A stretch of DNA of 64,000 nt, taken from the NCBI GenBank assembly GCA_027486845.1, contig JAIXOL010000077.1:1-64000 (forward strand), given 5' to 3'. Position numbers and translations under genes: made by a program. Each line of letters starts with the position of its first letter. Within the stretch, counting starts at the first letter, position 1. This stretch comes from Cytophagaceae bacterium (GTDB lineage: Bacteria > Bacteroidota > Bacteroidia > Cytophagales > Spirosomataceae). The notes beneath the pieces are model-generated. The model was not told the DNA's origin and did no database searches. It saw only the letters and a list, made by a program, of their open reading frames with translations. Positions 1,486 to 33,617 of the stretch are shown piece by piece.

Positions 1486-1734
1486 CAGGAACTTCAGCTA
1501 AACGCTAATCAATATGTTATAAAATCACTATTTTTTATCTATATAAATCAAATTTTATGGTGTAAAGTTATGAAATAACCTAATATCATTATTAATACAT
1601 GCTTAAACAAAATCTATCTTTTAATGTCCTCAAAGAATACTGTATTGATTTATATTGCATTTTAAAATCATTCTATTAAAATATGTAAACAATCAAAGGG
1701 AAATCAGAGATGTGTACATTTTAGAATAATCAAT

Positions 1735-4700
1735 TTATAATTCGACTATTCTATTAGCTGATTTTTCGTTTTCAGAACCATCTTGTCTTTTAGTTCTTGT
1801 TCTGTCAAAGGCAATATTTTGAAAAATTGGAGCATACTTAGTTTTCAGTTGCTGAAAGGCTTCAAGGCTTGCCTTGACAAGCCACCCAGAACCAACCTCA
1901 CTCTTTGAATGATGTTTTACACTTCTCAAATTTCCATTTATCCAATAAGTAGATTCTACCATTAAATTGCCTTCAGAATCTATCCATCTGAAAAGACCAT
2001 TTTCATCATATTCCCATCCCATTTCAAGAGCAATCATAGGATTGAATGCTAACCAATTCAAAATTTTATCAGGAGTTCGATGCTCAAACTCATGCCAATT
2101 GAAAAGTATAAATTCATTAGTATTATGATAAAATGGGTAGTCAAACAATTTTTTGTTATAAACTACTTCAAATGGGAAATAACGATTGAATTTTTGGTGT
2201 TTTTTCCTTGAAATAAAACAATTTCTATCTTCTCTCTCCCAGTTACCACCAAGACATCGAAAAGTTGTGTTTTCTGCCAATATAACGAAATCATCAAATT
2301 TATTTTGATAGCCATTTATTGCATCCTCTACTTTTTCATACCAATTACTTTCCAATCCATAGAAAAAAGATTTATCCTTTTTAAACCCTTCATAGATAAT
2401 TCCATTGATAAAGTCAGGTTGTTTTTGTGGATTAAGCAGCCAAAAGTCAGGGTCAAATGAGTTACTAATTTGCTCAAATCGCTCGTAGTATTCTTGAATT
2501 CCTAAATCATAGAGTTCTTTGAGTAAAATATTAACCGCTAATCTTGAAATTACGAAACTCAAAATTAATCTCGAATTATCAAAAGAAGTATTTCTATCAT
2601 ATATAATGTTAAAACTTGTGTAATCAGCATCTACTTCTAACTCCTTAATTATTCTGAGTAGCTTACTTTTCCATACATTTTTATCAAGTTTTAATATGCT
2701 TTCTAATACACTCGTACAATACTTTAATTTATATTTGACTTCATCTAAACTGATTTCTTCATTCTTAAATATTTGTTCAAATTCATTAAACCCGTCTTGA
2801 TTTATCAATAATTTATTTCGATATATTTTCCAGTTTTGTTCTTTAAGTATAAAACTTACAAAATCATCATCAAAGTCAGATAGTTCAAAGAGCATTTCCT
2901 TAGCTTTATTACTAACTTCAAAAAGTTTTGAGTTCGCTAAAATTTTAAGCTCATTTATGAAGTTTTTGATTATTATTTGATTAGTATCAAAAACACAGTA
3001 TAGAATCTGAATAGTATTTAATTGACTTTTATAAGATGTTTCAAGACAATATTCTTGAAGCCTAACAACAAATCCCGTATCTTCATTTAATAGCCAATTA
3101 ATATAGATAGAAATGGCTGTTTGAGAAAGTGTTAAGTTATTTTGGTTGGCGTAAAAGATTAGTAAATCTGCAATCCCATAGCTAAGAGAAATTTCTTTTT
3201 TACTGAGTAGTGGTAGATTTGGATTTACTTCAGCAGTTAATAGAAGCCTCTCTAAATAAAATTTTATCTCAAAACAAACCTCTTTATCATCAAAATCAGG
3301 TTTTATTACTTCTAAAATTTCTTCTATTTCAAATAAATCACTCGAATTACTTTCAATAGTTTTCAAAGCATAATCTGCAAAGGCTTCTTTTCTGATTTTC
3401 TCTCCATCAATTTCAATAAGCCATTTAAAAGCCTGTAGCCTTTTCGCTCCATCATAACTTTTAATCCAAGTATTTCCTTTATTACCCAAAATCTGATAGA
3501 TTAATTCTCTACCAGTATCATCATAACCTTTGCTGATAGAAAATTCTACCATATCAAAAATGATTGTTTCACGAGCAATATTTTTTTCCTTTAAGGTATC
3601 AGATAAAGTCTTAATATTTGATTCGGTGAGATACGTTTGGAAAAAAGAAAAGATTGATTTCCAATTAAATCCGTAGCTATAAGTAAACTCTTGATTGTTA
3701 AAGTAGAACAACAAATCTTCAAAATTCTTGATTTTACTTTTTAAATCTTCAGTTGTAAAGGTTTGCCCATCGGTTAGTTTTAAATACTTTTCTTCCTTTG
3801 CCTTTTCTTCTATTTCTTGTAATTCAAAATTATCATCAAAGTCAATATTCAAGCTATACAATAAATTATAATAGCTTTGTCTAAGTTCATAAGTTGGATA
3901 GATTGATAAGTAATATCGGAGTTTACTTAAGAACTCATCAAATTCAGATATTGAAAATAGTTTTTCAGCTCTATTAATTAATTTTTGAAGTAAGTCAGTA
4001 TCTGAATAATTGTGAATATAAATGTATAATTTACCCCATAAATCCAAAAGTATTGAGAAATCATGGGAAGTTGTCTGTTCAAGTGTTTTTTCAATAAAAA
4101 TATTTAAAGTTGAGGTATAATCATACAAATTGTTTTCAATTTGCCACTTCATCTGAGTTATGCCATCAAATAAATTGAACATAAGTAACTCCTTCAAGGT
4201 AAAATCTGCAATATCCGTACCTGCATTTTCAGTTGTGTAGTTTATATGATTATTTACTGAATTTAGCCATTGCAACCTTTGGTATGCATTCTGAGGTTCG
4301 TAACGATTTATTTTCCTAATCCATTTAGTCCAATATTCAAGTTGATAATCTTTTCTATATCCAATACCTAAAGATTCATTGTATGCCTTTTTTAACCATA
4401 ATTTTGACATATCAATGTCATTAAGTTCAGCCCAATATTCTGCTATTTTCAAACTTTGGCTAATTCTCTCGTCAAGTGATGACTCTTGATTAACTGACTT
4501 TTCACTGTATTCCAATAATTTTTTTTTAGTTTCAATATCACTAAAGCCTCCTCGGAATACTTGAATTACTATTTTGATTCTCAAATCAAAGCTTTTCCAA
4601 AACTTTGGATAAGTCTCAAATTCGGAGGATAAAAAGTGCCATAATTTTTCGGTATTTTTAGTGCCAGAACTACCTAATGTCTCTACCAATCGCAGCATTA

Positions 4701-4874
4701 TATTTTCTCTTCTCCCGATAATATCACTCCAAGTTCTGTTTTTAATAATATCGTGTTCCTGATAGAAGTATCTCACAATAGGATATACCCTACGAATATC
4801 AAACGTTTCATTAACATCTAAATCAACTTTTAATTTTGCCAAATAGTATAGAATCCTTTCAAATTCAATTTTTA
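1735..4874 (-). pseudogene. 3' half of IS66-interrupted giant STAND ATPase
   Basis: As it stands this is an ORF of 1035 codons starting with TTG at 4842, but the open frame continues upstream without a stop right up to the IS66 end at 4875. With the IS and one copy of the 8-bp duplication removed it joins in frame to the 5' half (6296-9202). This half is almost wholly helical, TPR-like or ARM-like repeat sequence, as expected for the sensor region of STAND proteins, and ends in an aromatic-rich C-terminal domain (about residues 850-1035). No Walker motif or membrane segment is seen. Whether an orphan C-terminal product is translated from the TTG is unknown; it would lack nuclease and ATPase. 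Confidence 0.85.
4867..4874. repeat. Left target-site duplication of the IS66 element
   Basis: AATTTTTA directly abuts the left inverted repeat and is repeated exactly at 6296-6303. Eight-base duplications are the hallmark of IS66-family insertion. Confidence 0.93.
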
Positions 4875-6295
4875 GTTACGACTCAGGTTCTGAGCCAAAT
4901 TAGTTAAATTGAATAAAAAGGTTTACTATTGCCCATTGACAGATAAAGAACTCATATCTCAGCTACAAGGCTCCAATGCTTTTCAAGCCCAACAAATTAA
5001 ATTGTTGGAAGAGAAAGTATTGTTGTTATTATCTCAAATTCAAAGTCAGTCTGTTAAGAAGGACTCACATAATTCGTCCTTACCGCCGTCAAGTGATATA
5101 GTTTCTAAACCTAAAAATCTACGTGTTTCCAGTGGACTCAAAAGTGGCGGTCAACTTGGACACAAAGGTACTACTTTGGAAATAAGTGCTACCCCGGACA
5201 AAATTATAGATTTGAAAAGTTCGTTTTGTTCTAATTGTGGTCAGAACTTACAAGATTCAATTTTTACTTTACAAGCGACACGACAAGTTGTTGAAATACC
5301 GCCTATAAAGCCTATTTATGAGGAATATAGGCAATACACTTGTCATTGTCCACACTGTCAAAACCAACAAATTGCTGATTTCCCAATAGGAGTAAATGCT
5401 CCTATTCAGTATGGCAGTAGCGTTGAATCATTAGTGAGTTACTTTTCAGTTTACCAATATATCCCCTTTAAACGCTTACAAAACGTGTTTTCACAAGTAT
5501 TTTCTATGCCTCTTTCAGAAGGAAGTATTGGTAATATTTTAGAACGTTCTGCTCAAAAATGCACAGGTATTTATCAAATTATCAAACAACAAATCGCCAA
5601 TAGTTCAGTAGTAGGTGCTGATGAAACAGGTGCCAAAGTAAATGGTGCTAAATGGTGGATTTGGGTTTGGCAAAATCTTTTAAATACCTTTATTGTCGCC
5701 TCAGACAATCGTGGCTCTCAAACAATAAATAGTGTTTGGAAGGATGGATTACCTAATGCTACTTTAATTTCTGACCGTTGGGCAGCACAATTAAAGTCAA
5801 CCGTAAAGAACCATCAGTTATGTTTAGCACATTTACTGAGAGAACTTATTTTCTTGGAGGAGTCTGAACTACAACCTTTCGCTAAATCATTCAAAGAACT
5901 TATCGTCTCTATTTTTGATACTCGAAAAATAATTGTTAAGGCATATTTATCCGATTCTAATGAGGCAATTGCTTTTGAAAATAGACTAAACGAACTACTT
6001 CTGATTACTATTGACAGAGAATTATCTCCCAATACGGCTGTTTTTCAAGCGTCCATGATAAAGTACCGCAATTATCTATTGCCTTGCTTATACAATTTAG
6101 ATATTCCTCCTGACAATAATGGCTCTGAAAGGGCTATTCGTAATGTCAAAGTTAAACAGAAGGTATCTGGACAATTCAAAACAGGTCAAAGTGCTTTTTG
6201 TATTATTCGTTCTGTCATTGATACGCTTCTCAAAAGGAAACTCGAGGTATTGCCATACCTTAATCAAATCATCAAATTACAACCTGTGTCGTAAC
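4875..6295 (+). mobile_element. IS66-family insertion sequence (1421 bp)
   Basis: Terminal inverted repeats GTTACGACTCAGG (4875-4887) and CCTGTGTCGTAAC (6283-6295) differ at one base, and an identical 8-bp direct repeat AATTTTTA flanks the element. A single transposase gene fills it; no tnpA/tnpB accessory ORFs are present, as in the single-gene IS66 subgroup. The element lies in opposite orientation to the gene it disrupts. The perfect duplication and intact transposase suggest recent insertion. Confidence 0.95.
4909..6294 (+). CDS. IS66 family transposase
   Basis: A 461-residue TnpC-type transposase. An N-terminal coiled coil (about residues 18-46) is followed by the family's basic HKGTTLE region, a zinc-binding motif CSNCG...CHCPHC (about residues 102-147) and the DDE catalytic core: VVGADETGAKVNG, LISDRWAAQL and the C-terminal NNGSERAIRNVKVK block, where the conserved glutamate lies. 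The start is TTG at 4909, 34 bp inside the element; the stop TAA lies inside the right inverted repeat. The gene appears intact, so the element may still be active. Confidence 0.93.
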   Translation: MNKKVYYCPLTDKELISQLQGSNAFQAQQIKLLEEKVLLLLSQIQSQSVKKDSHNSSLPPSSDIVSKPKNLRVSSGLKSGGQLGHKGTTLEISATPDKIIDLKSSFCSNCGQNLQDSIFTLQATRQVVEIPPIKPIYEEYRQYTCHCPHCQNQQIADFPIGVNAPIQYGSSVESLVSYFSVYQYIPFKRLQNVFSQVFSMPLSEGSIGNILERSAQKCTGIYQIIKQQIANSSVVGADETGAKVNGAKWWIWVWQNLLNTFIVASDNRGSQTINSVWKDGLPNATLISDRWAAQLKSTVKNHQLCLAHLLRELIFLEESELQPFAKSFKELIVSIFDTRKIIVKAYLSDSNEAIAFENRLNELLLITIDRELSPNTAVFQASMIKYRNYLLPCLYNLDIPPDNNGSERAIRNVKVKQKVSGQFKTGQSAFCIIRSVIDTLLKRKLEVLPYLNQIIKLQPVS

Positions 6296-9202
6296 AATTT
6301 TTATATTCATTTCCTCATTCTTGGTCAGAGCAAAAATTGTTGCGAAATCAAAAGGGATACCTATTTTCAAGTATAAGATAATTAACCAATAAATTAGATA
6401 GCTATCACTCCTTTCTTTTTCGAGTTCAGATTTTAATTGAATAATCTCAATACCTTCAATCAGTTCGCGTATCTGTTGTTTATTACCTGAAGTATTTAGA
6501 ATTAGATAGGCTAACCTGATTTTATGATAAAATGATAGTTCTTTGCCTTTAACTATTTTTAAAAGCAGATTGAGAATGTCATTGGCAGATGCACTGTCAT
6601 TTTCTTTCAAGAAATAAAAAGTAATCTCTTCCAGTGTATTAAAACTAAAATCGAAGTTCTTATTGAAGTTGAAGCACTTTATAAGCTGCTTGATTTTCTT
6701 ACCTTCTTTTGCATTTATTAAGAATTCAAAAAGCCCTAAAATTAAATCACTTTTTAGTCGACTACTTTCTTTCTGATAATAATCGTTATGAGATTTCTTA
6801 TTTTCATTTGCCAATGATAGATTTTTTATTTTAGCTATCACATCCTCTATCGAACTAAAGTAATGTGCGACCAAAACCCATTCTTTCAATAATTCATCTA
6901 CTTTATTTCCATAACCCGCTCGCCGATTATTATCAATCAAAATACCATTTTCAGTTATTTCAATTGGTTGTGCCATTCTAAAGAGCAGCTTTGCATCTGA
7001 TTCTTTACCATTTGAATGGATGAATCTTGCTAATTTCATCTTCAGTTTAAGTGTCTCTGTATCATCAGAAGGTAAAAAAATGAACTGTTTGATGGTATCA
7101 TTTCCTATAATAGTAGAAGAAAAATCTAAAAACTTATCTTGATTAAAATTCCATTCTCTCCTTGAAAATTCAGCCGATAGAAATGCAAATCGTAGCAACA
7201 ATTTTACATCTTGTTTCTCTGATGCTATAATTTGACCCATTTTTAAATCTTCAAAGACAAAATAATAAGGCCTCAGATTTTCAACCTGACTTTGAAAGTA
7301 TTGGTGATTTGATAGTTCAATAAAGTCATCATATTGCCCTGCTTCAAAAAGGTGATAAAGTCTATCAAAATTTAATGCAAATACACTGGTTGATTTAGCA
7401 TATTGAGCTAATTTCTGATGGTATTCTAATTCAAGATTGTCGTCAATTTTGTTGAAAGGAGTTATTATGGTTTTTTCTAATAAAAATTGTCTAAAACTAT
7501 TATGAAAAATTGTCCAAGTATCGAAAGAGTTATCAAAAAACTGATGAAAGAAATAAAATAATTGTGTCTGAACACTCCTACGAATATTCCATTCTTTCAA
7601 GAACCTTTCATCAAAACCAAATCGGAGTCTGACAATTAACCCTAAAATGCTAATCAAATCATCATTATCTTCATAATTTTTCAAAACCCTTTCATAATAC
7701 TCTACAATATCATTAATAGGTCTTAAATTTTCTAAGACAGCCTCTTTGTCTTGTGACTCTTTTACAATTTTCAAAATAAAATTCAGATATAGCGGATGTC
7801 CTTCTGAGATTTTGAATATTTTCTCTTTTGTTATTTCATCTACGTTTATAGATTTTGAAATGATACTATTGACAATATCGAATGATAAGGATTTGATTGA
7901 GATACTTCTTTTAGAGTCATTTTGAAGATTCCTAATAGAAATATCAAGGTCCGCTAATTGATATGTTTGGCTACCCAAAATGATAAAAACGCCTTCTGGG
8001 ATTTCTGATGGAGGAGGGAGGTATTTTAATAAACTATCATTTATATTACCATATTCTCTTGGGATGTGGTCTAAACCATCAATAATAATGATGGTTTTTT
8101 CTCCTTTTGATTTATATTCCTGATGAAGTAGCGATAACTGCCTGATAAAAGTCGAATGTATTTGTTCGATACTTCCTCTATATGGATAAACCTTTTCATG
8201 ATAAAAACCTAACTCAGCTATTTGGAAAACTAAATCAAAAAATAAGTTTTTTGCACTACCTCGCTCGGGATAATTCTCTATTTTATATTTGTTTGAGTAA
8301 GCATAATATTTGATTATCCTTTCGGTTCTTTTTTTTAACCATTCCGTGAGTAACGTTGATTTTCCTGTACCAGGTCTACCACTTAATAAAATATATCCTC
8401 CACTTTGATTTTCAATCATTTCATTTAACTCCTTGATAGTTTCAGAATTCGGAGTGTAAATGTCTAAATCTACCCAAAAATCATGATGAAAAATTGTATC
8501 TGCTTCGAGACTTAATACTTTTTTTAGTTCTCTTGCAGTAAACTTAATCTTGCTTTTTAGATTATAATACTCATCAAGTATAAATTTTGTGTATGAATTA
8601 TAGTTCAGCTCAATTTGACTATAATTCATATCAGATGAGTAGTTTGGGCGAATTTCTGAAAACTCAAAGACTAAATTTTTTAGAAATTTCTTAAATTCGG
8701 ATTCCAAAATTCCTAATTCTGATAATTCGTTACTAATAAACGAAGACCATTTTTTTGAGATAGGCTTCTCTTCTCTAATTTTTTGGTAGTATTCTGCCAA
8801 AAAATCTCTAAATGTGCCAATCTTAGTTCCTTTGAGCTTGAGAATATCATTCTCAGAAGGTTTTTGAGATGTAATTATATGTGCAAATACTCGTTTATCA
8901 GGATTATTTTTGCAAAGCTTTTTCCAACTTTCAATAAGGTCACCAATCAAATTCCTAAATACTTTGTAAGAGAAAGTGGGCATTTTGTCTTGGTTAGACC
9001 ACTTCATTTGATAAGCATGTATTTCATCCAAAGTTGCATATTGAATATCATCTAATATACCAGCCTTAGGGTCGCCAATTTTAATCCAGTCGAGACTATT
9101 TTGGATTAAAAGATGATAAGTTTTATCTATAAAAAACTCAATTTGAGGTACTTTGCCCGAAAAATCAATTTTGTCCCCTTTTGATGGTGATAGATTTTGC
9201 AT
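6272..9202 (-). pseudogene. 5' half of IS66-interrupted nuclease-STAND ATPase
   Basis: The 976-codon ORF ends inside IS66; native sequence runs to 6296 (about residue 969). Residues 1-170 resemble the Cap4/DUF4297-type PD-(D/E)XK nuclease: GILDDIQY (49-56), E60 and YQMK (64-67). The P-loop GRPGTGKST is at 275-283, Walker B IIIIDGLDHI at 371-380, then winged-helix and helical repeats. This is the nuclease-NTPase-sensor order of AVAST (Avs) and related anti-phage STAND proteins. Joined in frame to 1735-4874 it gives about 2012 aa. The upstream GTPase gene is only 4 bp away, so the two were one operon. As present, a truncated product with nuclease and ATPase but about half the sensor could still be made. 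Confidence 0.85.
6296..6303. repeat. Right target-site duplication of the IS66 element
   Basis: AATTTTTA, identical to 4867-4874. The two copies encode the same two codons (Lys-Ile) in both halves of the split gene, which shows that frame is conserved across the insertion. Confidence 0.93.
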
Positions 9203-9206
9203 AAAT

Positions 9207-11480
9207 TCAAATCATTATTCCTGTATATTCACTTAGTAATCTTTTTAATTTCATAGTGTCAGAGTTAAGTTTCTCTAATTCTTCAAATGTATTTTTATAC
9301 ATTTCTTTGTCAGAATCGGTAATAGGATTACCTAAATCCTTCATTTGGTTCTGTAAATCAAGAGTGTAAGCATTAAGTTTTCTGTGAGTATAACTATATA
9401 TTTCACTGGTTTTATTTTCTATGGCATTGTTAAATGCTATTTTAATTTGTGGAAAAATTTTTTCTATCCGATTTTCTGTTTCATTGACTATCTTTTTTAT
9501 GCGTGTAGTTCTTCTATTTTCTGCTGTAAAAATAAGATTCCCCAAAAGGCCTGACAACGCTGCCGCAACAAATCCTATTGGTGCAATTAATGCCCCAATT
9601 ATGCCAGTGAAAACAGTTGTCCCAACAATTGAGGTGTAGTCAATACTTGGCATGTTGAATCGCTCTATCTCACTCAAGTCAATCATTTGCTGTTGAGTAT
9701 AGTGATATATATATTCTCTTATTTGTTTCATGTTTGTTTCAATCCACTCATCAGCTATATTTTTCAGATTATTTATGTGGTGTTGATGAGCCAAATTGTA
9801 GGTTTCAAGTAGATTATTTATTCGGTATCTTAGAAAATCTTTAATCTTTGTTTCATTTGGAAGGTTATCAGCTAATGAAATTTTATGCAGGTCATTCTCT
9901 AAAGTTCTTAAAATCTCAGTTTTATCATTGTCTATCTGTAAATTCAACTGTTTGATATTGTCATTTTTTTGGATAGATAGAATTGTATATAAATTGGGAA
10001 TCCTTTGTTGAACCTCGGTAATCATTCCCATAACTTCACTTCTTTTTTTGTCATCAAAGAGCTTACTTCTAAGAATTTCTTCAAAACTTCGTGTAGCGTT
10101 AAGAATGTCATCGCATAGTGCGTTAAGATTCATCAAACCATTTCTATTCGAGTTTAAAATAAAACTCCAAAGCTCGTTTTCGAGACTTTGTAATGAATCA
10201 TAGTTGTCATTTTTCTTTGGTTGATTTTTGGTACTTATGTAGTATATTTTATCTGAAATTTGACTTTTAAGTTCAAATTTATTCAAATCTGATTGCACTC
10301 TCTTTTTTAGACTTTCAAGTATATTGCTATCAAGAGAATCTACTTTGTTAAATACAAGAAATATTTTGTCAGCAGAAGTTCCTAATTCAGAAAGCTGTTT
10401 TTTTATATCCTTTCTAAGGATAAAACCTCCGTTTTGTGCAGGAGAAGCATCTAATAAAAATAGAATAATATTTGAAGTGGAAGCAGTTTGCCATGCATAA
10501 TCATAGATGAGCTCATTAGGCTCATCTAAACCAGGTATATCATATATGGCAAACCCCTTTTCAAGTTGTCGATTTGCCGATTGGATAATGACCAATTTTA
10601 CTTCTTTGTAGTTATCCTCATTTTCATCTTGGGAGGCAAATTTTTGAATGATGTTGGCTTTAAGGGGATATTCTTCTTTTCTGTTGTCTAAATAATGAAT
10701 AATAAGCTTCTCCTTTTTGTTCGAAATTATTTGTATTGGTACTCCCGTAGTTTGGAAAAAGCCAACTGGAGAAAGTTCTTTTTTTAGTAAGGCATTTATC
10801 AAGCTACTTTTTCCTACCCTTGAAGGCCCTGAAATTGCAATTCGATAGATAGACTCCTCTAACTTTTTATATAATTCTGGGCTACCGTATTCATTTGTTT
10901 CAAAATTAAATGGCTCCGTGATTTTTTCTAAATTGCTAATTCTCTCCAAGCAACTATTTTTGATTTCAAAGTAGGTTTCAGGTAAAATCAGTTTTTTAGT
11001 TGAAGATTTTGAATTAAAGACATACTCTCTTATTGTTTCAAGTTGCCCCCGCACTAATGTATTCGTTTTCGGGATTAGTAATGTCTTACTTTTCTGTGAA
11101 GTCCAACTTGATTCTTTATTCAACTCAGTAATAAGATTCTCGTCTATCCAAATATAGAAAAAAGCTTTATTCACTAAATCATTAATTACGAATAAAACTG
11201 GCAGGTTTGAGTTATACCATTGAATAATTTTATTGGTTGAAATAGAAAAATGGATATTCTTTTCAAATATTTTGATTGATTCAGTAGATTTCAATTGAAC
11301 TCCAAAAAATTTACTTTCATTCCGAAAAGAATCATTTTTGAAATTAGATTGAGTGGTTATTTCAACCAAAGCATCAATACCATAGTCTTTACTTATCCAC
11401 GAAGCAACATACCAAGGTTCTATGATTTCTTCAAAATTCCTTTTCGACCTATCTTCGTTGATGTGTGAAGAAACTCTCAT
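9207..11480 (-). CDS. DUF4365 nuclease fused to dynamin-like GTPase
   Basis: A 757-residue two-domain protein. Residues 1-150 match DUF4365, a PD-(D/E)XK-type nuclease: DYGIDALVEI (32-41) and GVQLKST (60-66) give the D...E...QxK signature. Residues 210-450 are a dynamin/YjdA-like GTPase: G1 GPSRVGKSS (218-226), TTG switch I (244-246), G3 DIPG (314-317), G4 NKVD (378-381). A helical stalk follows, interrupted by a hydrophobic glycine-rich hairpin (about 617-652) typical of the membrane-inserting paddle, then a C-terminal coiled coil. Predicted role: a membrane-associated GTPase carrying a nuclease, probably anti-phage. Its stop is 4 bp before the STAND gene start, indicating an operon. The fusion and pairing are not ones I recognise from a named system. 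Confidence 0.8.
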   Translation of the reverse strand: MRVSSHINEDRSKRNFEEIIEPWYVASWISKDYGIDALVEITTQSNFKNDSFRNESKFFGVQLKSTESIKIFEKNIHFSISTNKIIQWYNSNLPVLFVINDLVNKAFFYIWIDENLITELNKESSWTSQKSKTLLIPKTNTLVRGQLETIREYVFNSKSSTKKLILPETYFEIKNSCLERISNLEKITEPFNFETNEYGSPELYKKLEESIYRIAISGPSRVGKSSLINALLKKELSPVGFFQTTGVPIQIISNKKEKLIIHYLDNRKEEYPLKANIIQKFASQDENEDNYKEVKLVIIQSANRQLEKGFAIYDIPGLDEPNELIYDYAWQTASTSNIILFLLDASPAQNGGFILRKDIKKQLSELGTSADKIFLVFNKVDSLDSNILESLKKRVQSDLNKFELKSQISDKIYYISTKNQPKKNDNYDSLQSLENELWSFILNSNRNGLMNLNALCDDILNATRSFEEILRSKLFDDKKRSEVMGMITEVQQRIPNLYTILSIQKNDNIKQLNLQIDNDKTEILRTLENDLHKISLADNLPNETKIKDFLRYRINNLLETYNLAHQHHINNLKNIADEWIETNMKQIREYIYHYTQQQMIDLSEIERFNMPSIDYTSIVGTTVFTGIIGALIAPIGFVAAALSGLLGNLIFTAENRRTTRIKKIVNETENRIEKIFPQIKIAFNNAIENKTSEIYSYTHRKLNAYTLDLQNQMKDLGNPITDSDKEMYKNTFEELEKLNSDTMKLKRLLSEYTGIMI

Positions 11481-11512
11481 TTTGAGTAAAGGATTAAAAA
11501 TTGCATGAAATT

Positions 11513-11520
11513 CAAAGATA
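11513..11520 (-). promoter_or_regulatory. Candidate -7 box for the GTPase-STAND operon
   Basis: CAAAGATA, that is TATCTTTG on the minus strand, matches the Bacteroidota TAnnTTTG -7 consensus and lies 33 bp before the ATG at 11480. No clear TTG -33 element is seen at the usual spacing. Confidence 0.4.
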
Positions 11521-11587
11521 TAAAAATTAGCTATTATTTGTTAATTTTATACTCATTTGAAATGGCTCTATTTAGGCTTATTGGCAT

Positions 11588-11619
11588 AATGGATTAGATA
11601 ATGAATGGATTAGATAATG
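11588..11619. repeat. 16-bp perfect tandem duplication in the 11481-11786 gap
   Basis: AATGGATTAGATAATG occurs twice in direct succession (11588-11603, 11604-11619). The rest of the gap contains the candidate promoter at 11513 and no recognisable gene. Confidence 0.75.
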
Positions 11620-11786
11620 TAAGACTAAACGAAGAAGTTTTTTACCAAGCTACAACCTTTCTGAAAATGCTCCTGTGCATAAAGTTACTGTAATTTAATC
11701 GCCACTTGAGCAAAGCCGAAAGGGATAGAGCAACATGTAGTGCCTACAAATCATAGCTCAATAAAGGTTTTTTGAATTAACTATAC

Positions 11787-12695
11787 TCACAAATTCCTCA
11801 AAAAATCATTCTCAGAAATAACCTCAATCGCAGCACCTTTTTCAATTAGCTTAATCGCCTTTTCTTGCTTACTACTCATACCATCATCGCCCACAACTTT
11901 GTAGTCTTGCTGGCCAACCACCAAAAAATCAGTGTCTTTTGTTATAGCATTGCCAAGTATCCCACCTATATCAGCAATCGCTTGTTGTGCTTTGCTCCGT
12001 ACCATTGATGAAAGCGTACCAGTAAAAACCACCGTTTTACCATAAAAAATGCTCTCTGGGTTATGTTTACTTGGGTCTCCCACAATCTGTTCGGCCACAT
12101 TCTTATAAACCCGCTTTGTCTCCGAAGGCCTATACCCACCCTCAAATAATAGCCCAACAGAAGTCCTAAGTTTTTCAGGAAAATCATCTACCGAATAGAC
12201 CTCAGCTTTATCAAAAGCCTTTAAGGCCAATTCAGCCGTAGCCCTGCTATCGGCTCCAGCTCTATGGTGTTTAAATAAAATACCATTAGCATTGCAAAGT
12301 GTCTTTAAGTCGTAGGCAGGCAAGCCCTGCCACACTTTTTTCGAGAAAATATAACTACAAGAATACTGCAACGATGGAAAAGGCAATTGATAAGCCTCCA
12401 ACGTCCTACGCAGCACACTCATATCAAATCCCGCATTATGAGCAATCAAAAACTGATTTTCAATCAGTGGCTTTATCTCATCCCAAAGCACATTAAACTC
12501 TGGTTTATCCGCTACATCTTCGGGTCTAATGCCATGAATCAACACATTAAAGTAATCAAAGTCATCATACATCGGCTTTATCAACCACGACTTTGTTTCT
12601 ACTATCTGTCTATTCTTCACAAACGTCAACCCAAGCTCACAGGGGCTATCTCTTTGGGCGGTTGCCGTTTCAAAATCAATCGTAATAAAGTCCAT
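11787..12695 (-). CDS. DEDDh 3'-5' exonuclease with C-terminal BRCT domain
   Basis: A 302-residue protein. Residues 1-165 are a DnaQ/epsilon-type exonuclease: FITIDFETA (Exo I, D7/E9), LIAHNAGFDMSVLRR (Exo II), and HRAGADSRATAELA (Exo III with His and Asp). Residues about 215-302 form a BRCT domain (GKTVVFTGTLSS...DFLVVGQQDY), the same type found at the end of NAD-dependent DNA ligase. Exonuclease-BRCT fusions occur widely in Bacteroidota and are thought to act in DNA repair; the substrate is unknown. It overlaps no neighbour but is 17 bp from the next minus-strand gene, so the two may be co-transcribed. Confidence 0.9.
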   Translation of the reverse strand: MDFITIDFETATAQRDSPCELGLTFVKNRQIVETKSWLIKPMYDDFDYFNVLIHGIRPEDVADKPEFNVLWDEIKPLIENQFLIAHNAGFDMSVLRRTLEAYQLPFPSLQYSCSYIFSKKVWQGLPAYDLKTLCNANGILFKHHRAGADSRATAELALKAFDKAEVYSVDDFPEKLRTSVGLLFEGGYRPSETKRVYKNVAEQIVGDPSKHNPESIFYGKTVVFTGTLSSMVRSKAQQAIADIGGILGNAITKDTDFLVVGQQDYKVVGDDGMSSKQEKAIKLIEKGAAIEVISENDFLRNL

Positions 12696-12712
12696 AATCT
12701 CAAATCCAATGA

Positions 12713-13732
12713 TTAGTTTTTCAAATACGGCATTTCAGCCGACTTCACCTGCATTCGTTTAATATCCCGCTTACCCCACTGTTCAGCTACCGCTATGGCC
12801 GTTATCTTTACCGTTACCATCACACCAGTTATCATATTATCATTATACAAACACACAAAATACTCCCCACGTCTGGGGTTCAGCATCCTCGAAAAATCAT
12901 TCACAACCTTACCTTTCTTAATAGAATTAATCGGCTGTCCTTTCATAAATAAACCCATATTCAACTCATCCGTAATAAAATAATCAATATCCTCACCCGA
13001 CTGAATCGACGAAATATAAGAAGTACCACCCAACGCCAATGAGGCCAGCGGTCCATAACCAGGTATTTTCGATACAATCGGCCCCGCAAATCTCGAAAGC
13101 TGCTTTGCTGCTGCATCAAATGCTTTCTGCCCATCTTGGTCAACCCCAATATAATAACTCCAAGCAACTGTATTCGGCGGCAACGTAAAACTCACCGTCG
13201 TTTTATTTCCATTCAAATTGCCCTGTGAATGTACCTTAGCCACTTGGTCAGTCAAATTAACCACCGATGTATCAGCCCGTATCAAATACTTTTCTTGCTC
13301 AATCGTATAAGTAGTATCGTAGGTAGTCTTCCAATAAACCGAAGTATTAAAATTCTTCGTAGCCTCTGATGCAGGAATTCGCTGAATCTTTAACTGACAA
13401 ATACGTCCAGTAATAGCCGAATTACTCAACCTAAACTTATAAATCCCCGTTCTCGTAATCGTCAAAACCTTATTCTCAATCTTTTTGGTCTTATAATCCA
13501 TAAACTTTGAAGACGACGGCAACTCAATAATCTCAAATTCTTTCAATTCCTTACCCTTCACTTCCCGAAAATTCAAAATCATCTTATCACCTTCAGCAAA
13601 ACCATAGTAAAAAACCTCCTCACCAAGTGCAGCAATCTTCAACGTAGTTTCAGCAACATCAATAGGTTCTTGTCCAAAAGCGTAATTACAATAAAACCCA
13701 AACCATAGTAGCAAAGTCGTGTATCTAAGCAT
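12713..13732 (-). CDS. Secreted hypothetical protein (339 aa)
   Basis: The ATG at 13732 is chosen over that at 13771 because it gives a clean signal peptide (MLRYTTLLLWFGFYCNYAFGQ); the longer start would also run through the hairpin at 13750-13768. The mature part is beta-rich, with an N-terminal domain around KGKELKEFEIIELP that resembles a beta-sandwich, and a small glycine/alanine-rich stretch (GPLASLALGGTSYISS) that might insert in or contact a membrane. Function is not recognised. Likely periplasmic or outer-membrane facing. Confidence 0.65.
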   Translation of the reverse strand: MLRYTTLLLWFGFYCNYAFGQEPIDVAETTLKIAALGEEVFYYGFAEGDKMILNFREVKGKELKEFEIIELPSSSKFMDYKTKKIENKVLTITRTGIYKFRLSNSAITGRICQLKIQRIPASEATKNFNTSVYWKTTYDTTYTIEQEKYLIRADTSVVNLTDQVAKVHSQGNLNGNKTTVSFTLPPNTVAWSYYIGVDQDGQKAFDAAAKQLSRFAGPIVSKIPGYGPLASLALGGTSYISSIQSGEDIDYFITDELNMGLFMKGQPINSIKKGKVVNDFSRMLNPRRGEYFVCLYNDNMITGVMVTVKITAIAVAEQWGKRDIKRMQVKSAEMPYLKN

Positions 13733-13749
13733 AGCAAAATTAAATGTGG

Positions 13750-13768
13750 AACGAAGTTGTACTTCGTT
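13750..13768. repeat. Short perfect hairpin AACGAAGT-TGT-ACTTCGTT
   Basis: An 8-bp perfect inverted repeat just upstream of the secreted-protein start. It could be an operator or a 5'-UTR hairpin. Confidence 0.55.
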
Positions 13769-14024
13769 CATTAAGCAGAAATAAACAGCAAGTTTGAATA
13801 AATTTCAAACTGTAAGACTATCACAAAACTCCCTCAACTGCAAGCAATTACTCAGAAATTTATCTTTCGGTATATTTAATGGCTTAATGAAACGGCAAGT
13901 AGCTTATACTCCTATAAATATACCCATCTTTGGTAAGTAGTCAATTTGCCAAATTCCACTGTTCTCTATTATTGTATATGGTAATATTTAATAGCTTGAT
14001 TATAATAAGTTGATAAAATAATGT

Positions 14025-14070
14025 TTGTTTTAAAAAACAAAATAATTATTTTTGTTTAAAATACTAAACA
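14025..14070. promoter_or_regulatory. Two palindromic operator candidates for HipB
   Basis: TTGTTTTAAAAAACAA (14025-14040) and TGTTTA-N6-TAAACA (14053-14070) are dyads sharing the TGTTT half-site. They lie immediately upstream of the hipB start at 14073, where HipB autoregulatory operators are normally placed. Confidence 0.5.
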
Positions 14071-14072
14071 TT

Positions 14073-14375
14073 ATGATTTTGCTACCCAGTCATCAAAAGA
14101 TACTTAGTCAATTAGGTGAAGATATAAAATTGGCACGATTGAGACGAAAGTTGAGTACCGAACAAGTATGCGAACGTGCAGGAATTAGCCGCTCTACGCT
14201 TTGGCAAATTGAAAAAGGCACACCAAGTGTAGCGATAGGCTCATACCTACATGTGCTGTTTATATTTGGCTTAGAAAAAAACTTTTTAGCAATTGCCAAC
14301 GATGATGTTTTAGGTAGAAAACTGCAAGATGCTGAAATTTTAGTAAAAAAACGTGCTTCAAAAACGAAAAAATGA
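14073..14375 (+). CDS. hipB: HipB-like XRE antitoxin
   Basis: A 100-residue Xre/Cro helix-turn-helix protein. The HTH covers about residues 13-65 (LARLRRKLSTEQVCERAGISR...LWQIEKG). The ATG at 14073 is preferred over the TTG at 14052, which lies inside an operator dyad. Its stop overlaps the hipA start (ATGA), the usual translational coupling of antitoxin and toxin. It should bind the HipA kinase, neutralise it and repress the operon. Confidence 0.85.
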   Translation: MILLPSHQKILSQLGEDIKLARLRRKLSTEQVCERAGISRSTLWQIEKGTPSVAIGSYLHVLFIFGLEKNFLAIANDDVLGRKLQDAEILVKKRASKTKK

Positions 14376-15634
14376 GCCAAAGAGAACGAAATATTTTAGT
14401 CTATGCCGATTGGCTGAATAAAGCTCAACCAGCTTTGATGGGAAATTTGTCGGCGATTCAAATCAGAGGTAAAGAAGTATTTGCCTTTGAGTATAACAAA
14501 GACTGGTTAAAATCAAACTATATCCAGCTCGACCCCGATTTGCAATTTTTCTCAGGCCGACAGTTTCTAAATGACTCAAAATCTAATTTTGGTATTTTCA
14601 TGGACTCTTCGCCCGACCGCTGGGGGCGTTTACTCATGAGAAGAAGAGAAGCAATGTTGGCCAGAAAAGAGCAACGAAAAGAAAACCTTTTGTTTGAAAC
14701 TGATTATTTGTTAGGGGTTTATGACGAACACCGTATGGGAGCTTTACGCTTCAAAATCGAAGATACAGGTGTCTTTTTGAATGATAATCGTGCAATGGCT
14801 GCACCACCATTTACCTCATTGCGTGAACTCGAACAAGCAAGTTTGCGACTCGAACAAGAAGATAGCATCAACGACCCCGAATACCTCAAATGGCTAAATA
14901 TGCTCATGGCTCCAGGGTCTTCACTCGGTGGAGCAAGACCAAAAGCCAGTGTAATTGACCCATCTCAACAATTATGGATAGCCAAATTTCCGAGCAAATT
15001 TGATGATAGAAATGTAGGTGCTTGGGAAATGGTTGTGCATAATTTAGCCAAACAAGCAGAAATAAATGTAGCGGATGCCTTTATTGAAAAATTTAGTGGC
15101 CGTCACCATACCTTTATCACCAGAAGATTTGATAGAATCCAGCATCAAAGAATTCACTTTGCATCTGCCATGACATTACTTGGTTATTCTGATGGTGCAG
15201 ATTTTCAAGAAGGAGTGAGTTATTTACAATTGGCCGAATTTATCATGCAAAATGGTGTAAACATCGAAAAAGATTTAGAAGAACTCTGGCGACGAATCGT
15301 TTTTAGCATTTGTGTATCAAATACTGACGACCACCTCCGAAATCATGGTTTTTTACTCACATCCAAAGGTTGGGAATTATCACCTGCCTATGATATAAAT
15401 CCAAACGAAAACGGGTCAGGTTTGAAACTCAATATCAGTGAAACAGACAACGCTTTAGAAATAGATTTGGCCATAGAAGTTACCCCCTATTTTCGTATCA
15501 AAAGCAATAAAGCAATGCAAATCGTGGAATCAGTAAAAAAAGCAGTTTCTAAATGGCGAACCATTGCAACTCAATACAAAATCAGCAAAAATGACCAAGA
15601 ATTGATGAGCAGAGCTTTTGAAAATAGTTTATAA
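14372..15634 (+). CDS. hipA: HipA-type serine/threonine kinase toxin
   Basis: A 420-residue HipA family kinase. The N-subdomain 1 region spans about residues 10-110. The ATP-binding Gly-rich loop is in GSSLGGARPKASV, the lysine strand is LWIAKFPSK, and the catalytic loop and metal-binding motif are NTDDHLRNHGFL and LSPAYDINPN. HipA kinases phosphorylate translation factors such as GltX or a tRNA synthetase, causing growth arrest. This one carries its N-terminal domain in the same chain, unlike split HipBST systems. No truncation is seen. Confidence 0.9.
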   Translation: MSQRERNILVYADWLNKAQPALMGNLSAIQIRGKEVFAFEYNKDWLKSNYIQLDPDLQFFSGRQFLNDSKSNFGIFMDSSPDRWGRLLMRRREAMLARKEQRKENLLFETDYLLGVYDEHRMGALRFKIEDTGVFLNDNRAMAAPPFTSLRELEQASLRLEQEDSINDPEYLKWLNMLMAPGSSLGGARPKASVIDPSQQLWIAKFPSKFDDRNVGAWEMVVHNLAKQAEINVADAFIEKFSGRHHTFITRRFDRIQHQRIHFASAMTLLGYSDGADFQEGVSYLQLAEFIMQNGVNIEKDLEELWRRIVFSICVSNTDDHLRNHGFLLTSKGWELSPAYDINPNENGSGLKLNISETDNALEIDLAIEVTPYFRIKSNKAMQIVESVKKAVSKWRTIATQYKISKNDQELMSRAFENSL

Positions 15635-15691
15635 AACCATGCACTTTGACACAAAGTAACCAGTAAATGGTTCTCTCTTTTCTCCAACAAC

Positions 15692-15794
15692 TTTCCCACG
15701 CACCAACCTATCCGCAGCCTACCAAATCTTACTATTCCATGCTATTGCATAGATAAGATTCCGTAGGCTGCTCCTTCCTATAAGGTCGCCATCA
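15692..15794. repeat. Hairpin cassette, copy 1
   Basis: About 103 bp, nearly identical to 15919-16020. It contains an inverted repeat with arms GCAGCCTAC..AATCTTA and TAAGATT..GTAGGCTGC (15714-15771). Confidence 0.8.
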
Positions 15795-15869
15795 TATAAT
15801 TTCTCTCATCGTTGGTCATTGAGCGTAGTCGAAATGAGCCGAAGGGAATGAGAGAAATTATATCATGGC
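15788..15869. repeat. 22-bp inverted repeat with REP core
   Basis: Arms 15788-15809 and 15848-15869 pair with one mismatch. The loop carries CATTGAGCGTAGTCGAAATG (15817-15836), a member of the TGAGCG..CGAAGG repeat family. Confidence 0.8.
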
Positions 15870-15918
15870 AAAAACACTTCATAAAGCTACCTCCTGTATA
15901 GTTGCATTTTCCTATAAT

Positions 15919-16533: not shown

Positions 16534-16648
16534 ACAAAAATTAAAAAAGGTGGCGATTTTTAGTTCTTTCTTTCCTCTTCCAATTACCAGCGAGATAGAT
16601 AGAAAATAATATAAGTCATTAATTATCAATAATTTAAACTAAACAAAA

Positions 16649-16921
16649 ATGAAGACTTTTTACCTCCGTTCGATTTGTAGCAATTGGTTTTATTGCATAG
16701 CTGAAAACGCCTGTATTATCATTTTTAAAGCTACTTTTTATCCTTCAATCAGTCTTTGTGCAGTTTGTCCAACTGAGATTCATGACGACCTCGTTGAGTG
16801 TTCAGAATCGGAATATTTAGAGGTAAGAAACGAGGTTCTAAAAAGGCTAAATATCAATATTCCAAAGCATCAAATTCAAGATTTTTCAATACCAGTTTAC
16901 CCCGACTATTCAAGTTTATAA
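16649..16921 (+). CDS. Small hypothetical protein (90 aa)
   Basis: A 90-residue protein with several cysteines in the first half (residues 9, 15, 22, 37, 40) and an acidic, helical second half (HDDLVECSESEYLEVRNEVLKRLNI). Not recognised. It begins after the long palindrome and 45 bp precede the next gene on the same strand, suggesting it is the first gene of the recombination module. Coding status is moderately supported by position and by normal composition. Confidence 0.5.
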   Translation: MKTFYLRSICSNWFYCIAENACIIIFKATFYPSISLCAVCPTEIHDDLVECSESEYLEVRNEVLKRLNINIPKHQIQDFSIPVYPDYSSL

Positions 16922-16966
16922 CAAGCATTTTTTAATCATTTTCAATATTTTAAACACTTTTCAATT

Positions 16967-17626
16967 ATGTCAAATCGTAAATCAAACACCGCAAAAACAA
17001 CCCAAGCAACCAAATTGTATTTAGTGCCACAAGTGGACAAAGAAACAGGCGAAGAGATTTTTGTTCCAAAATACAAATACATTCCAGGTTCGCCCAAGCA
17101 GTACCGTTACAACTCCCAAAATGGTCAGTTTAATATCAACGGTGAGCGTATTTTATTAGATGGCAAAGGTTCGCCAATTACTCAATTTAGTTTTCAACCC
17201 ATTGCGTGGAGAATATTTGAAGCCCCAATGTTTGGCCGAGACCGTGCCGATAAGTGGTGTGAAATATTTTTCATCGACGACAAAAATTGTGTTTCATGTA
17301 TCATGTTCAACAATACCACATTGGAAGAACTCAATAAATTAGCCGAACAAATGTTTTACGATGATATTACTTTGGCTGATATAGTGCTAACCATGAAGCC
17401 CGAAAAAATCGAATCGAAAACCGAAAACAAATCTTGGTACATTGGACGTTTTTCATACGACTACGCAGAAAAAAATAAAGTTGCCGAACTCCAAGAATTT
17501 GCCAACGACTACCCAATTTTCAGACGTGATACAATCACAGAAAAAGCCATCTATTTGGCAAAATCCGAAAACTTCCACATTCCACCCAAAGCAGAGGTTT
17601 TAGAAGAAGCCAAACAAGCCGCCTAA
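16967..17626 (+). CDS. Uncharacterised protein of a phage/plasmid recombination module (219 aa)
   Basis: Family not recognised. A basic, flexible N-terminus (SNRKSNTAKTTQATK) precedes a compact mixed domain with the strand-rich segment KWCEIFFIDDKNCVSCIMFNNTT (split about residues 100-123) and a helical C-terminus. It lies directly before a DUF932 protein and a PD-(D/E)XK nuclease on the same strand; in phages such genes accompany RecE/RecT-like pairs, so a single-strand DNA-binding or annealing role is a reasonable guess but rests on context only. Confidence 0.65.
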   Translation: MSNRKSNTAKTTQATKLYLVPQVDKETGEEIFVPKYKYIPGSPKQYRYNSQNGQFNINGERILLDGKGSPITQFSFQPIAWRIFEAPMFGRDRADKWCEIFFIDDKNCVSCIMFNNTTLEELNKLAEQMFYDDITLADIVLTMKPEKIESKTENKSWYIGRFSYDYAEKNKVAELQEFANDYPIFRRDTITEKAIYLAKSENFHIPPKAEVLEEAKQAA

Positions 17627-17665
17627 AATCAATCATTTTTTTTCATTTTCTCATTCTATTTAATT

Positions 17666-17707
17666 CCCCTCTCCCGAACCCTGAGCGTAGTCGAAGGGGG
17701 AGAGGGG
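17666..17707. repeat. REP-family hairpin with CCCCTCTCCC arms
   Basis: CCCCTCTCCC (17666-17675) and GGGAGAGGGG (17698-17707) flank CCCTGAGCGTAGTCGAAGGG (17679-17698). It lies between two co-directional genes. Confidence 0.75.
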
Positions 17708-17735
17708 CAAGGAATGGGGCTAAACTTTCAAACTA

Positions 17736-18563
17736 ATGAAACCAACACAAAAAACTATATCTTGGGAAATCGAACAAAAACCCATCTATTCAAATAATAG
17801 CCAGTTAAGAAACTACCAAGCAATTTTTAGAAACGATAACGGTCAACTCCTAAACGTAGCAAAAACAAGCTACACACCAACCCCCAACCAAAGATTTGTA
17901 GAAGTAGTTGAAAAAATGCAAGAAATTACAGGTTTTCCGCTGCAAACCTATGACGAATTCGAGGGAGGAAAAAAGGTTTTAGCATTTCTTGAATGTACCG
18001 AAGCAATCAAAGTTTACGGCTATGATTTTAAAGATTATATGATTATTGGCAACAGCCACGACAGCAGCACAGGCTTTTTTATGGGTAACAGTTCAAAAAT
18101 GATTCGTTGCTCAAATCGTTTTTCAAAAATCTTTCGTCAGTTGCAAGTACATCACACAAAAAACCATGATGTGAAAATTGATGGTTTACTCCGATACTTT
18201 GAAACGTATATGCGTGAGCGTAAAGAATTATACATCAAAATGGCACGAATGCACACCGCCAAAATTGAAAGTTCAATCAAAAAGGCATTAGTTGAGCGAT
18301 TGACAAGAATGAACGAGGAGGAAAAATTGGGTATTGCCGAACTCTCACCAAGAAAAAGAAATCTGATTGATAACATAAACGCATCAATCGAGAGAGAATG
18401 CCTTGATTTAGGCGATACCGCTTTTGGGCTATTACAAGGTATTACGCACCACACAACCCACGTAAGAAAAAATAAAGAAGAAGTTTTTGGGAACGTATTA
18501 GGCGGAGCCGCCCGAATCAACGAAGAAGCATTTAGATTCTGTGAACAATTAATTGCTGCCTGA
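17736..18563 (+). CDS. DUF932 phage/plasmid-like protein
   Basis: A 275-residue protein of the DUF932 / TIGR03299 family, found in phages and conjugative elements. Family signatures seen are YQAIFRNDNGQLLNVAKTSYTPTPNQ near the N-terminus, the central ASTGFFMGN-like segment (SSTGFFMGNSSKMIRCSN) and the C-terminal GLLQGITHHTTHVRKNKEEVFGNVLGG. Biochemical role is unknown. The stop codon TGA is supplied by the REP repeat at 18558-18577, so the present C-terminus may have been set by repeat insertion. Downstream genes follow on the same strand. Confidence 0.85.
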   Translation: MKPTQKTISWEIEQKPIYSNNSQLRNYQAIFRNDNGQLLNVAKTSYTPTPNQRFVEVVEKMQEITGFPLQTYDEFEGGKKVLAFLECTEAIKVYGYDFKDYMIIGNSHDSSTGFFMGNSSKMIRCSNRFSKIFRQLQVHHTKNHDVKIDGLLRYFETYMRERKELYIKMARMHTAKIESSIKKALVERLTRMNEEEKLGIAELSPRKRNLIDNINASIERECLDLGDTAFGLLQGITHHTTHVRKNKEEVFGNVLGGAARINEEAFRFCEQLIAA

Positions 18564-18577
18564 GCGTAGCCGAAGGC
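18558..18577. repeat. REP-family palindrome overlapping a stop codon
   Basis: GCCTGAGCGTAGCCGAAGGC. Its TGA is the stop of the DUF932 gene, and the ATG of the next small ORF follows immediately. Confidence 0.8.
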
Positions 18578-18736
18578 ATGTACAAATTTTCAACAAAAAA
18601 AGGGCTTGTATTCAGAACCGAATACAGCCCCTTAGAAATCTCAAAATTTTATCATTTTGATGCTTTCGACAGCAAAGCAAATAGATTTGTCATTCTGACA
18701 AAAGACGTAAATTTCAAAACATTTGAATTTATCTGA
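18578..18736 (+). CDS. Small hypothetical protein (52 aa)
   Basis: ATG at 18578, TGA at 18734-18736, encoding MYKFSTKKGLVFRTEYSPLE and so on to KTFEFI. The composition is like its neighbours, with alternating charged and aromatic residues and no membrane segment. It fills the gap between the DUF932 gene and the nuclease gene on the same strand, which supports it being real. Not recognised. Confidence 0.5.
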   Translation: MYKFSTKKGLVFRTEYSPLEISKFYHFDAFDSKANRFVILTKDVNFKTFEFI

Positions 18737-18758
18737 TAATCTTTCAATTAAATAAAAC

Positions 18759-19472
18759 ATGAAGAATACAAATATTTTTAGCTCCCCTTTAGGGGATGGG
18801 GGTTACCGCCAATATCCAGCAATTTCAAACAGTGATTTAACCGAATTTAGGGATTTTATTTTTGGAATCAAAAGGTTTAAACCAGTCAATACTTTTGCTT
18901 TCGGTAGTGCCTTCCACGAGGTTTTATTAGAACCCAAAGTACCCCACATTTTCCCCGATTCAGTTGATAAAGACCAAATTTTACATTTATCAAACAAAGT
19001 TCGAGAAAATAAATTTTGCAAATGGGCATTGCAATTTTCAAGAAAAGAACAAGGTTTTTTATTTGATGATGTCCAAACAAATTTACCTTGCAAAGCTAAA
19101 ATTGATATGGTTTTAAGCCAAAATCTAATTGTAGATTTCAAAACCACAAGCCAACGAAGCGAGGCAGCTTTTCTAAAATCTTGCTTAGAATACGAATACG
19201 ACCGCCAAGCAGCATTCTATTTAGATGCTGCCACAAATCACAATCATTTTGGTAGTCAAAGGAAAAGCAATATGAAGTTTATTTTTGTAGGAGTTCAGAA
19301 AAAAGCACCTTATGATTTATATATTTTCGATACTTCAAAAGATGCAGCTTTTATCGAACAGGGTAGAAAAAAACACAAAGCCCTATTACGCAGATGGAAA
19401 GAAATGGGAGGCGTTCCCAATGCTTTTGTACCATCCACATGGAATGTAGAACTTTTAAATCAAGCCGCCTAA
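18759..19472 (+). CDS. PD-(D/E)XK nuclease, RecE/exonuclease VIII-like
   Basis: A 237-residue protein of the PDDEXK exodeoxyribonuclease type. Visible motifs are FGSAFHEVLLEP (about 48-59), CKAKIDMV (acidic residue at motif II), LIVDFKTT (DxK, about 127-134) and YDRQAAFYLD (the motif IV glutamine). Expected role is 5'-3' resection of double-stranded DNA for recombination. Residues 8-15 (SSPLGDGG) are encoded by a CCCCTTTAGGGG palindrome that looks like an in-frame repeat insertion. The stop overlaps the next ATG (TAATG). Confidence 0.8.
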   Translation: MKNTNIFSSPLGDGGYRQYPAISNSDLTEFRDFIFGIKRFKPVNTFAFGSAFHEVLLEPKVPHIFPDSVDKDQILHLSNKVRENKFCKWALQFSRKEQGFLFDDVQTNLPCKAKIDMVLSQNLIVDFKTTSQRSEAAFLKSCLEYEYDRQAAFYLDAATNHNHFGSQRKSNMKFIFVGVQKKAPYDLYIFDTSKDAAFIEQGRKKHKALLRRWKEMGGVPNAFVPSTWNVELLNQAA

Positions 19473-19843: not shown

Positions 19844-19866
19844 ATAATAAATGAAAGCTTTATAAA

Positions 19867-19900: not shown

Positions 19901-19938
19901 GCTTTTGCACAGCTTTCGCACCCACCCTCCAGCCCTTC

Positions 19939-33615: not shown

Positions 33616-33617
33616 TT

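Follow-up and report, generated by a model that had tools for sequence, protein, structure and literature searches.

In the AVAST type 3 receptor SeAvs3, binding of a viral protein to the sensor is described as giving a tetramer in which nuclease domains are paired (PMC11291478, partial text), and for Avs1 to Avs4 both phage and host genomes are reported to be cut (PMC12931631, partial text). Within the IS66 family of insertion sequences, members of the ISBst12 group have one open reading frame (ORF) per element, and one of them, ISDge4, whose movement is termed copy-and-paste, has imperfect inverted ends and an 8-bp direct repeat (PMC12898284, partial text). Here we report that in a 64,000-nucleotide stretch of the Cytophagaceae bacterium draft genome GCA_027486845.1 (contig JAIXOL010000077.1, positions 1 to 64,000; this whole stretch is referred to as the window) the minus-strand segments 1735-4874 and 6296-9202 are one gene of approximately 2012 codons split by an IS66-type element. 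We hold with considerable confidence that the gene encodes a STAND receptor of the AVAST/Avs kind with an Avs3-like layout and that the insertion has most likely left it inactive in this strain. Within the draft genome (5.36 Mb, 82 contigs) the window corresponds to contig 39. Each half was searched against 148 genomes, the source genome included, and a set of 26 loci was obtained by scanning a genome collection with two peptide patterns of the N-terminal domain; several of these loci end at contig edges. The parts of the broken gene and of the element are as follows.

1735-4866, minus strand: C-terminal part of the broken gene with the remaining sensor (1043 codons plus stop)
4867-4874, no strand: left copy of the target-site duplication AATTTTTA
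4875-6295, plus strand: IS66-family element of the single-ORF (ISBst12-like) type, 1421 bp (ends, duplication and transposase; group description in PMC12898284, partial text)
4875-4889, no strand: left terminal inverted repeat
4909-6294, plus strand: transposase ORF of the element (461 aa)
6281-6295, no strand: right terminal inverted repeat
6296-6303, no strand: right copy of the target-site duplication AATTTTTA
6296-9202, minus strand: N-terminal part of the broken STAND-nuclease gene (969 codons including one target copy; the ORF as it stands is 6272-9202, 976 aa)

The element belongs to the IS66 family. Its ends, GTTACGACTCAGGTT and AACCTGTGTCGTAAC, form 15-bp inverted repeats in which 14 of the 15 bases are equal, and the 8-bp direct repeat is perfect on both sides, the chance of such a match at exactly those two places being ≈3e-5 from base composition alone. 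Its ORF scored 232 bits with the NCBIfam IS66 transposase model NF033517 (cut-off 180) and matched Pfam DDE_Tnp_IS66 at 1.6e-31; both the family and the perfect duplication had been recognised in a first-pass annotation made from the sequence without database searches. No named element was matched to it. The draft genome has no close second copy, other matches being pieces of 72-84% identity, and in all only two of the 11 genomes of the genus have relatives of the element, namely the source genome with these pieces and one other (G006) with a copy of 67% identity. Identical repeats are often lost in draft assemblies. As in the ISBst12 group, one ORF occupies the element (461 aa as compared to 449 aa in ISDge4), and the similar-looking imperfect ends and the 8-bp direct repeat are also as in ISDge4, the host being a different one (PMC12898284, partial text). 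Excision, which the first-pass annotation treated as an event to be expected at the site, is not supported, given the copy-and-paste movement ascribed to an element of this group in that partial text.

Removal of the element together with one target copy takes away 1429 bp, which is not a multiple of three, but the ORFs themselves are offset by one frame (2 mod 3 for the N part, 1 mod 3 for the C part); the halves therefore join in phase. This gives a protein of 966 + 3 + 1043 = 2012 aa, and Lys-Ile is encoded on both flanks, all in agreement with the initial calculation. The N frame is open up to the element and runs on for seven codons inside it, and the C frame is likewise open up to the element and meets a stop within the terminal repeat. 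Thus, the early description of a frame open to both ends of the element stands, but "in frame" is true of the empty site only, since the frame is closed as the gene now stands. Similarly, the ORF bounds are present as first listed, the start assigned to the C part (TTG at 4842) being merely the first start-like codon past the element.

Uninterrupted relatives carry the case for one gene. The nearest is an orthologue of 2029 aa in Emticicia aquatilis (NZ_BMKK01000001.1; G004), which is of the same genus as the window genome and holds the same flanking element; it is 58% identical to the N half and 48% to the C half, and in the alignment the three target-encoded residues fill a three-residue space so that the junction is without a gap. 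An orthologue of this kind spanning the junction was what the first-pass annotation had proposed to look for. An uninterrupted ORF of 1946-2090 aa is present in 21 of the 26 loci, 20 of these 21 being from Bacteroidota, while three further loci (L036, L045, L046) are truncated by contig ends. In the 148-genome search the C half matched in four genomes (the source, G004, G021 and G117) and the N half in six (the same four together with remote STAND proteins in G030 and G086), and in G004, G021 and G117 both halves fall in the same single open frames of 2034, 2087 and 1596 codons, respectively. Searches with each half revealed no second copy of either in the source genome, and within the reach of the N-terminal-pattern scan no homologue is kept as two separate genes. 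Moreover, the separately predicted models of the two halves match consecutive, non-overlapping stretches of one solved chain, that of SeAvs3; the two models being independent, this agreement adds separate evidence that the gene is one. On the assembled sequence, a false assembly join was judged unlikely because the duplication, the inverted ends and the collinear orthologue agree.

The models from which the layout was derived were predicted from alignments of each window half with 22 relatives, with mean pLDDT values of 78.9 (N half) and 79.5 (C half), and delimit the domains listed below.

8513-9202, minus strand: PD-(D/E)xK (Cap4/Avs3-like) nuclease domain, residues 1-230 (model topology, 25-row alignment, fold match)
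7475-8479, minus strand: STAND NTPase with winged helix, residues 242-576 (Pfam, Avs1b profile and VIA; motifs GRPGTGKST, IIIIDGLDH and FHNSF by eye)
6305-7435, minus strand: first part of the helical sensor, residues 590-966 (predicted model)
2464-4866, minus strand: helical-repeat sensor, C-part residues 1-801 (predicted model, VIA)
1738-2331, minus strand: C-terminal beta-rich domain, C-part residues 846-1043 (predicted model; the match to the Avs3 chain, 988-2070, reaches its end)

The order of a P-loop NTPase, a winged helix and a helical sensor is that of a STAND NTPase. At the Pfam cut-offs the N half has P-loop/STAND-type NTPase domains only, and the Avs1b models are confined to this region in all rows (PADLOC 23/23, NCBIfam 21/21). 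The window N half matches the Avs1b model at an E-value of 4.3e-31, and a profile comparison (hhalign) of the family with a true Avs1b (L065) gave 99.8% and E 6.8e-29 over columns 244-751; on the other side, the NCBIfam Avs1b model scores 79 and 89 bits in two members, far below its cut-off of 1500. The P-loop ATPase and the long helical sensor of the initial description are thus borne out, the beta-rich domain at the C-terminus being an addition to it. No significant match to the C half was found in Pfam, NCBIfam or PADLOC, which makes plausible the earlier warning that the halves would be annotated as unrelated proteins.

The N-terminal domain looks like a PD-(D/E)xK nuclease of the Cap4/Avs3 type, with a predicted role in DNA cutting. 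Specifically, residues 14-111 of the N-half model are arranged as helix-strand-strand-strand-helix-strand with one short extra helix, and all 25 aligned rows share D44, D51, D52, Q65 and K67 without exception. The predicted topology, an invariant acidic residue and a (D/E/Q)xK motif together correspond to the PD-(D/E)xK core, and the D...QxK pattern of the family is a form of it. The "Cap4-like nuclease" of the first-pass annotation agrees with this topology, with the invariant D51-D52...Q65-x-K67 and with the Avs3 fold match, but not with the Pfam Cap4_nuclease profile (PF14130), which matched none of the 25 rows at E≤1. This negative carries little weight since L083, a true Avs3, also escapes the same model. 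A search of PDB sequences with the nuclease domain alone found nothing.

The N half has SeAvs3, a known sensor of phage terminase whose structure was solved with the terminase bound (PDB 8DGC), as rank 1 in Foldseek (E 2.1e-16), and VIA aligned 796 residues to chain positions 2-971 with Z 15.2 and a root-mean-square deviation (rmsd) of 29.5; given this rmsd the domains are set differently from those in SeAvs3. For the C half SeAvs3 is the sole Foldseek entry at or below 1e-3 (E 1.2e-9), and in VIA 759 residues aligned to positions 988-2070 with Z 14.6 and rmsd 9.8, the next row having Z 11.1. On predicted models (mean pLDDT 79) a SeAvs3-like fold is thus found over the whole length.

Several observations weigh against an Avs-kind receptor broken by the element. 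By VIA, SeAvs3 is only fourth for the N half and has a large rmsd; MalT (16.5), NRC1 (15.8) and a further STAND protein (15.4) rank above it, with matches over the NTPase and helices. The C half resembles Avs3 by predicted fold only, at 10% identity, and high Z values are easily reached by helical proteins. The Avs3a model PDLC02167 has no match to the intact members P0006 and P0007 at E≤1, in contrast to the true Avs3 relatives L083 and L084, which match it at 2.1e-188 and 1.8e-166 (L083 matches SeAvs3 itself at 1.4e-107), and no PADLOC or NCBIfam model names the family Avs3. Sequence comparison of the nuclease domain alone gives nothing convincing (hhalign 31.9% to Avs3 and 0.4% to a Cap4-STAND protein). 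With respect to the single gene, two of the 26 loci are themselves broken: L047 (Prevotellaceae metagenome-assembled genome, 8989-11283) has just the nuclease domain of 195 aa followed by an ORF that is integrase-like by eye, and L048 (Hymenobacter sp. CA2-7, 6486-10200) has a decayed receptor homologue with several frameshifts, next to a transposase-like ORF. The G117 homologue is a single ORF of 1595 aa that lacks the C-terminal end, the insertion site still being spanned, and the N-terminal-pattern scan is of a kind that cannot list stand-alone C halves. As a separate observation, past the transposase-like ORF of L048 there is, by eye, a CRISPR-like repeat stretch with cas1/cas2-like ORFs.

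The alternative that survives best is that the family constitutes a distinct AVAST lineage, with an Avs1b-like NTPase in an Avs3-like layout, and that it has a trigger other than the terminase; we regard this as a real possibility, somewhat short of an even one, and apart from the trigger it is compatible with the explanation that we prefer. It accounts for an NTPase that is nearest to Avs1b in a protein whose whole layout is nearest to Avs3, for a sensor that is not alignable to Avs3 by sequence and for the silence of the Avs3a model. Against it, the C half matches Avs3 in fold through the entire sensor and the beta domain. At the sequence level, profile comparison with the two Avs3 proteins (L083 and L084) gave 95.9% and E 5.7e-9 for columns 75-688 only, and Avs3 was not found when PDB sequences were searched with the family profile at E up to 1 and up to 10.

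Returning to the Avs-kind receptor, the sensor of its intact relatives would most likely bind a phage protein that is conserved, namely the large terminase if Avs3 is taken as the model. Binding would lead to NTP-dependent oligomerisation in which the nuclease domains are paired, and these would then cut DNA such that the infected cell dies before phage is made. Trigger, oligomerisation and nuclease activity are in this scheme transferred from the Avs systems to the intact members. In the window strain an ISBst12-type IS66 element would have jumped into the sensor-coding part, leaving the 8-bp duplication, and the cell would make no more than the 976-aa piece, in which nuclease and NTPase are followed by about a quarter of the sensor. 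Through the insertion the nuclease-NTPase part is severed from ≈1040 residues that belong to the sensor and the beta domain, and loss of receptor function appears to be the simplest and most likely outcome. Apart from the insertion the gene halves have no stop or frameshift, and of the residues invariant in 21 full-length relatives the window keeps 73/73 in the N half and 33/35 in the C half. As a counterweight, the share of invariant residues retained by an intact relative is itself 76-100% when each is omitted in turn; residue conservation therefore shows no decay and cannot date the insertion. The insertion looks recent because no decay beyond it is visible.

It is very unlikely, in our view, that the N piece with nuclease, NTPase and part of the sensor still acts, be it as an unrestrained product, as a brake on receptors or together with a separate C piece. 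The complete set of invariant residues in the N half, its own ATG start, the intact upstream neighbour and the few changes in the C piece would all be in keeping with such activity, but this conservation is equally expected from a recent insertion. Moreover, the C piece lacks a likely start or promoter: there is a TTG near its beginning, the first ATG comes only at codon 57, and between 4700 and 5300 no TTTG-N15-21-TANNTTTG motif, which follows the Bacteroidetes-type TTTG/TANNTTTG promoter consensus, faces it. Nor is there another copy in the genome for the N piece to work with. The narrower idea that the 976-aa fragment is made in an operon with the neighbouring DUF4365-dynamin gene and has a role of its own, as receptor brake or as one chain of a two-piece receptor, appears to us slighter still; if true, a mobile element would have converted an immune sensor made of a single chain into a device of another kind. 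Finally, that the two ORFs flanking the element in the window were always separate genes, with the element between them by coincidence, has a negligible probability. The single-ORF relatives, which include the orthologue from the same genus, refute it. Further against it, each frame stays open as far as the element and the two are in phase when the duplication is taken into account, and the halves share one solved chain without overlap.

The following features were identified in the surroundings of the receptor.

9207-11480, minus strand: intact upstream gene with a DUF4365 domain and a dynamin-type GTPase, separated by 4 bp from the STAND gene (the same neighbour is present in E. aquatilis, 54%)
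117-1575, no strand: left flank, 90% identical to the E. aquatilis element
16640-20527, no strand: right flank, 93% identical to the E. aquatilis element

Between the two Emticicia loci the long flank matches are 90-97% identical and the receptor and neighbour pair 65-66%; at four-fold sites 76-96% are equal in four flank genes and 32-46% in the pair, and the G+C content of the pair is 29-31% vs 37-42%. The diverged cassette between the near-identical flanks spans 1600-15900 in the window and 6150-14840 in the E. aquatilis locus (L012), with an extra block at ≈11.5-15.7 kb in the window. The simplest reading is that the whole cassette was swapped for a distant homologue at the same place. Positive selection was judged insufficient as a cause of the divergence since the four-fold sites have also strongly diverged. 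The receptor and its neighbour sit in a mobile-element slot, deeply diverged between two species while the flanks are nearly identical. The left flank gene is matched in four of the 11 genus genomes, G000 and G004 at 100% and the others at 23-29%, and with only these two at high identity there is no third state to compare for a genus-wide cargo hotspot.

Among the 26 loci, several of which end at contig edges, the DUF4365-dynamin gene is found beside the receptor in one (L024) and is therefore not a general partner of it; none was found in the IMG/VR scan and no paper joining DUF4365 with dynamin was found in the open-access literature. By eye, the protein has a hydrophobic stretch near residue 640 and D...Q-L-K in its DUF4365 part. 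Possibly it is a nuclease-like domain fused to a GTPase, and perhaps a defence gene in its own right.

Other genes in the window were noted as well. At 33588-37308, 22 kb away from the receptor, PADLOC reports CBASS-type genes in a row: an HNH-SAVED effector (4e-153), a CD-NTase (6.2e-142), an E2 (1.7e-49) and another CD-NTase-like gene, distinct from the first (1.8e-84); two cyclase-like genes together seem unusual. A HipA-like kinase (14372-15634) and an XRE-metallopeptidase of the ImmA/IrrE-like type (31447-32556) were identified by eye. The window genome has no match to two Avs2 models and one Avs3a model. Elsewhere in the genome set, an Avs2 homologue at G011:C6:4733228-4737329 (L075/L078) is interrupted by an in-frame TAA, with a further piece lying in a different frame, and is thus also a broken STAND receptor.

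The insertion is an everyday event in bacterial genetics and in itself an ordinary knockout, and the window strain carries a natural, probably loss-of-function, allele. Annotation can lose such genes, as the C half, which has no significant family match, illustrates. A search of the open-access literature found no paper on Avs defense genes disrupted by an insertion sequence. The family, intact in most of the loci, is left unnamed by the PADLOC and NCBIfam models tested, which is no claim of its absence from print, and intact members occur in named strains in culture, where they are open to phage assays. In one scan of IMG/VR there was just one distant STAND-like protein (L067), of 1940 aa with an N-terminal D...QVK by eye, on contig 3300028026_000079 (1-5823), which is filed as viral and in which a recombinase-like ORF adjoins.

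Compared to described systems, the family shares its size and domain order with SeAvs3, on whose chain the window halves occupy consecutive ranges, and the D...Q-L-K pattern is also seen by eye in the true Avs3 relative L083 (D65, Q85-L-K87). It differs from SeAvs3 in that identity is 10-13%, in the silence of the Avs3a profile and in a sensor unmatched by sequence. With Avs1b (AVAST type 1; PDLC02159, NF041810) it has in common a similar length and, homologous by sequence, the NTPase and the start of the helical region. However, NCBIfam names Avs1b a protease whereas the effector of the family looks like a nuclease; the match of the window protein begins only at Avs1b position 211, the N-terminal effector region being outside it; and the Avs1b of L065 has an Avs1a MBL partner, whereas the window receptor has no adjacent MBL gene, its neighbour being the DUF4365-dynamin gene. 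The Cap4 nuclease-STAND protein P0011 has the same succession of nuclease, STAND and long C-terminus (hhalign 98.8% over columns 15-675), but P0011 matches Pfam Cap4_nuclease, unlike all 25 rows of the family, and the nuclease domains alone do not align. By sequence the family is thus outside Avs3, it leans to Avs1b by its NTPase, and by its whole fold it is nearest to Avs3; our preferred reading of the intact family is a divergent, unnamed AVAST-type STAND receptor, not a member of Avs3.

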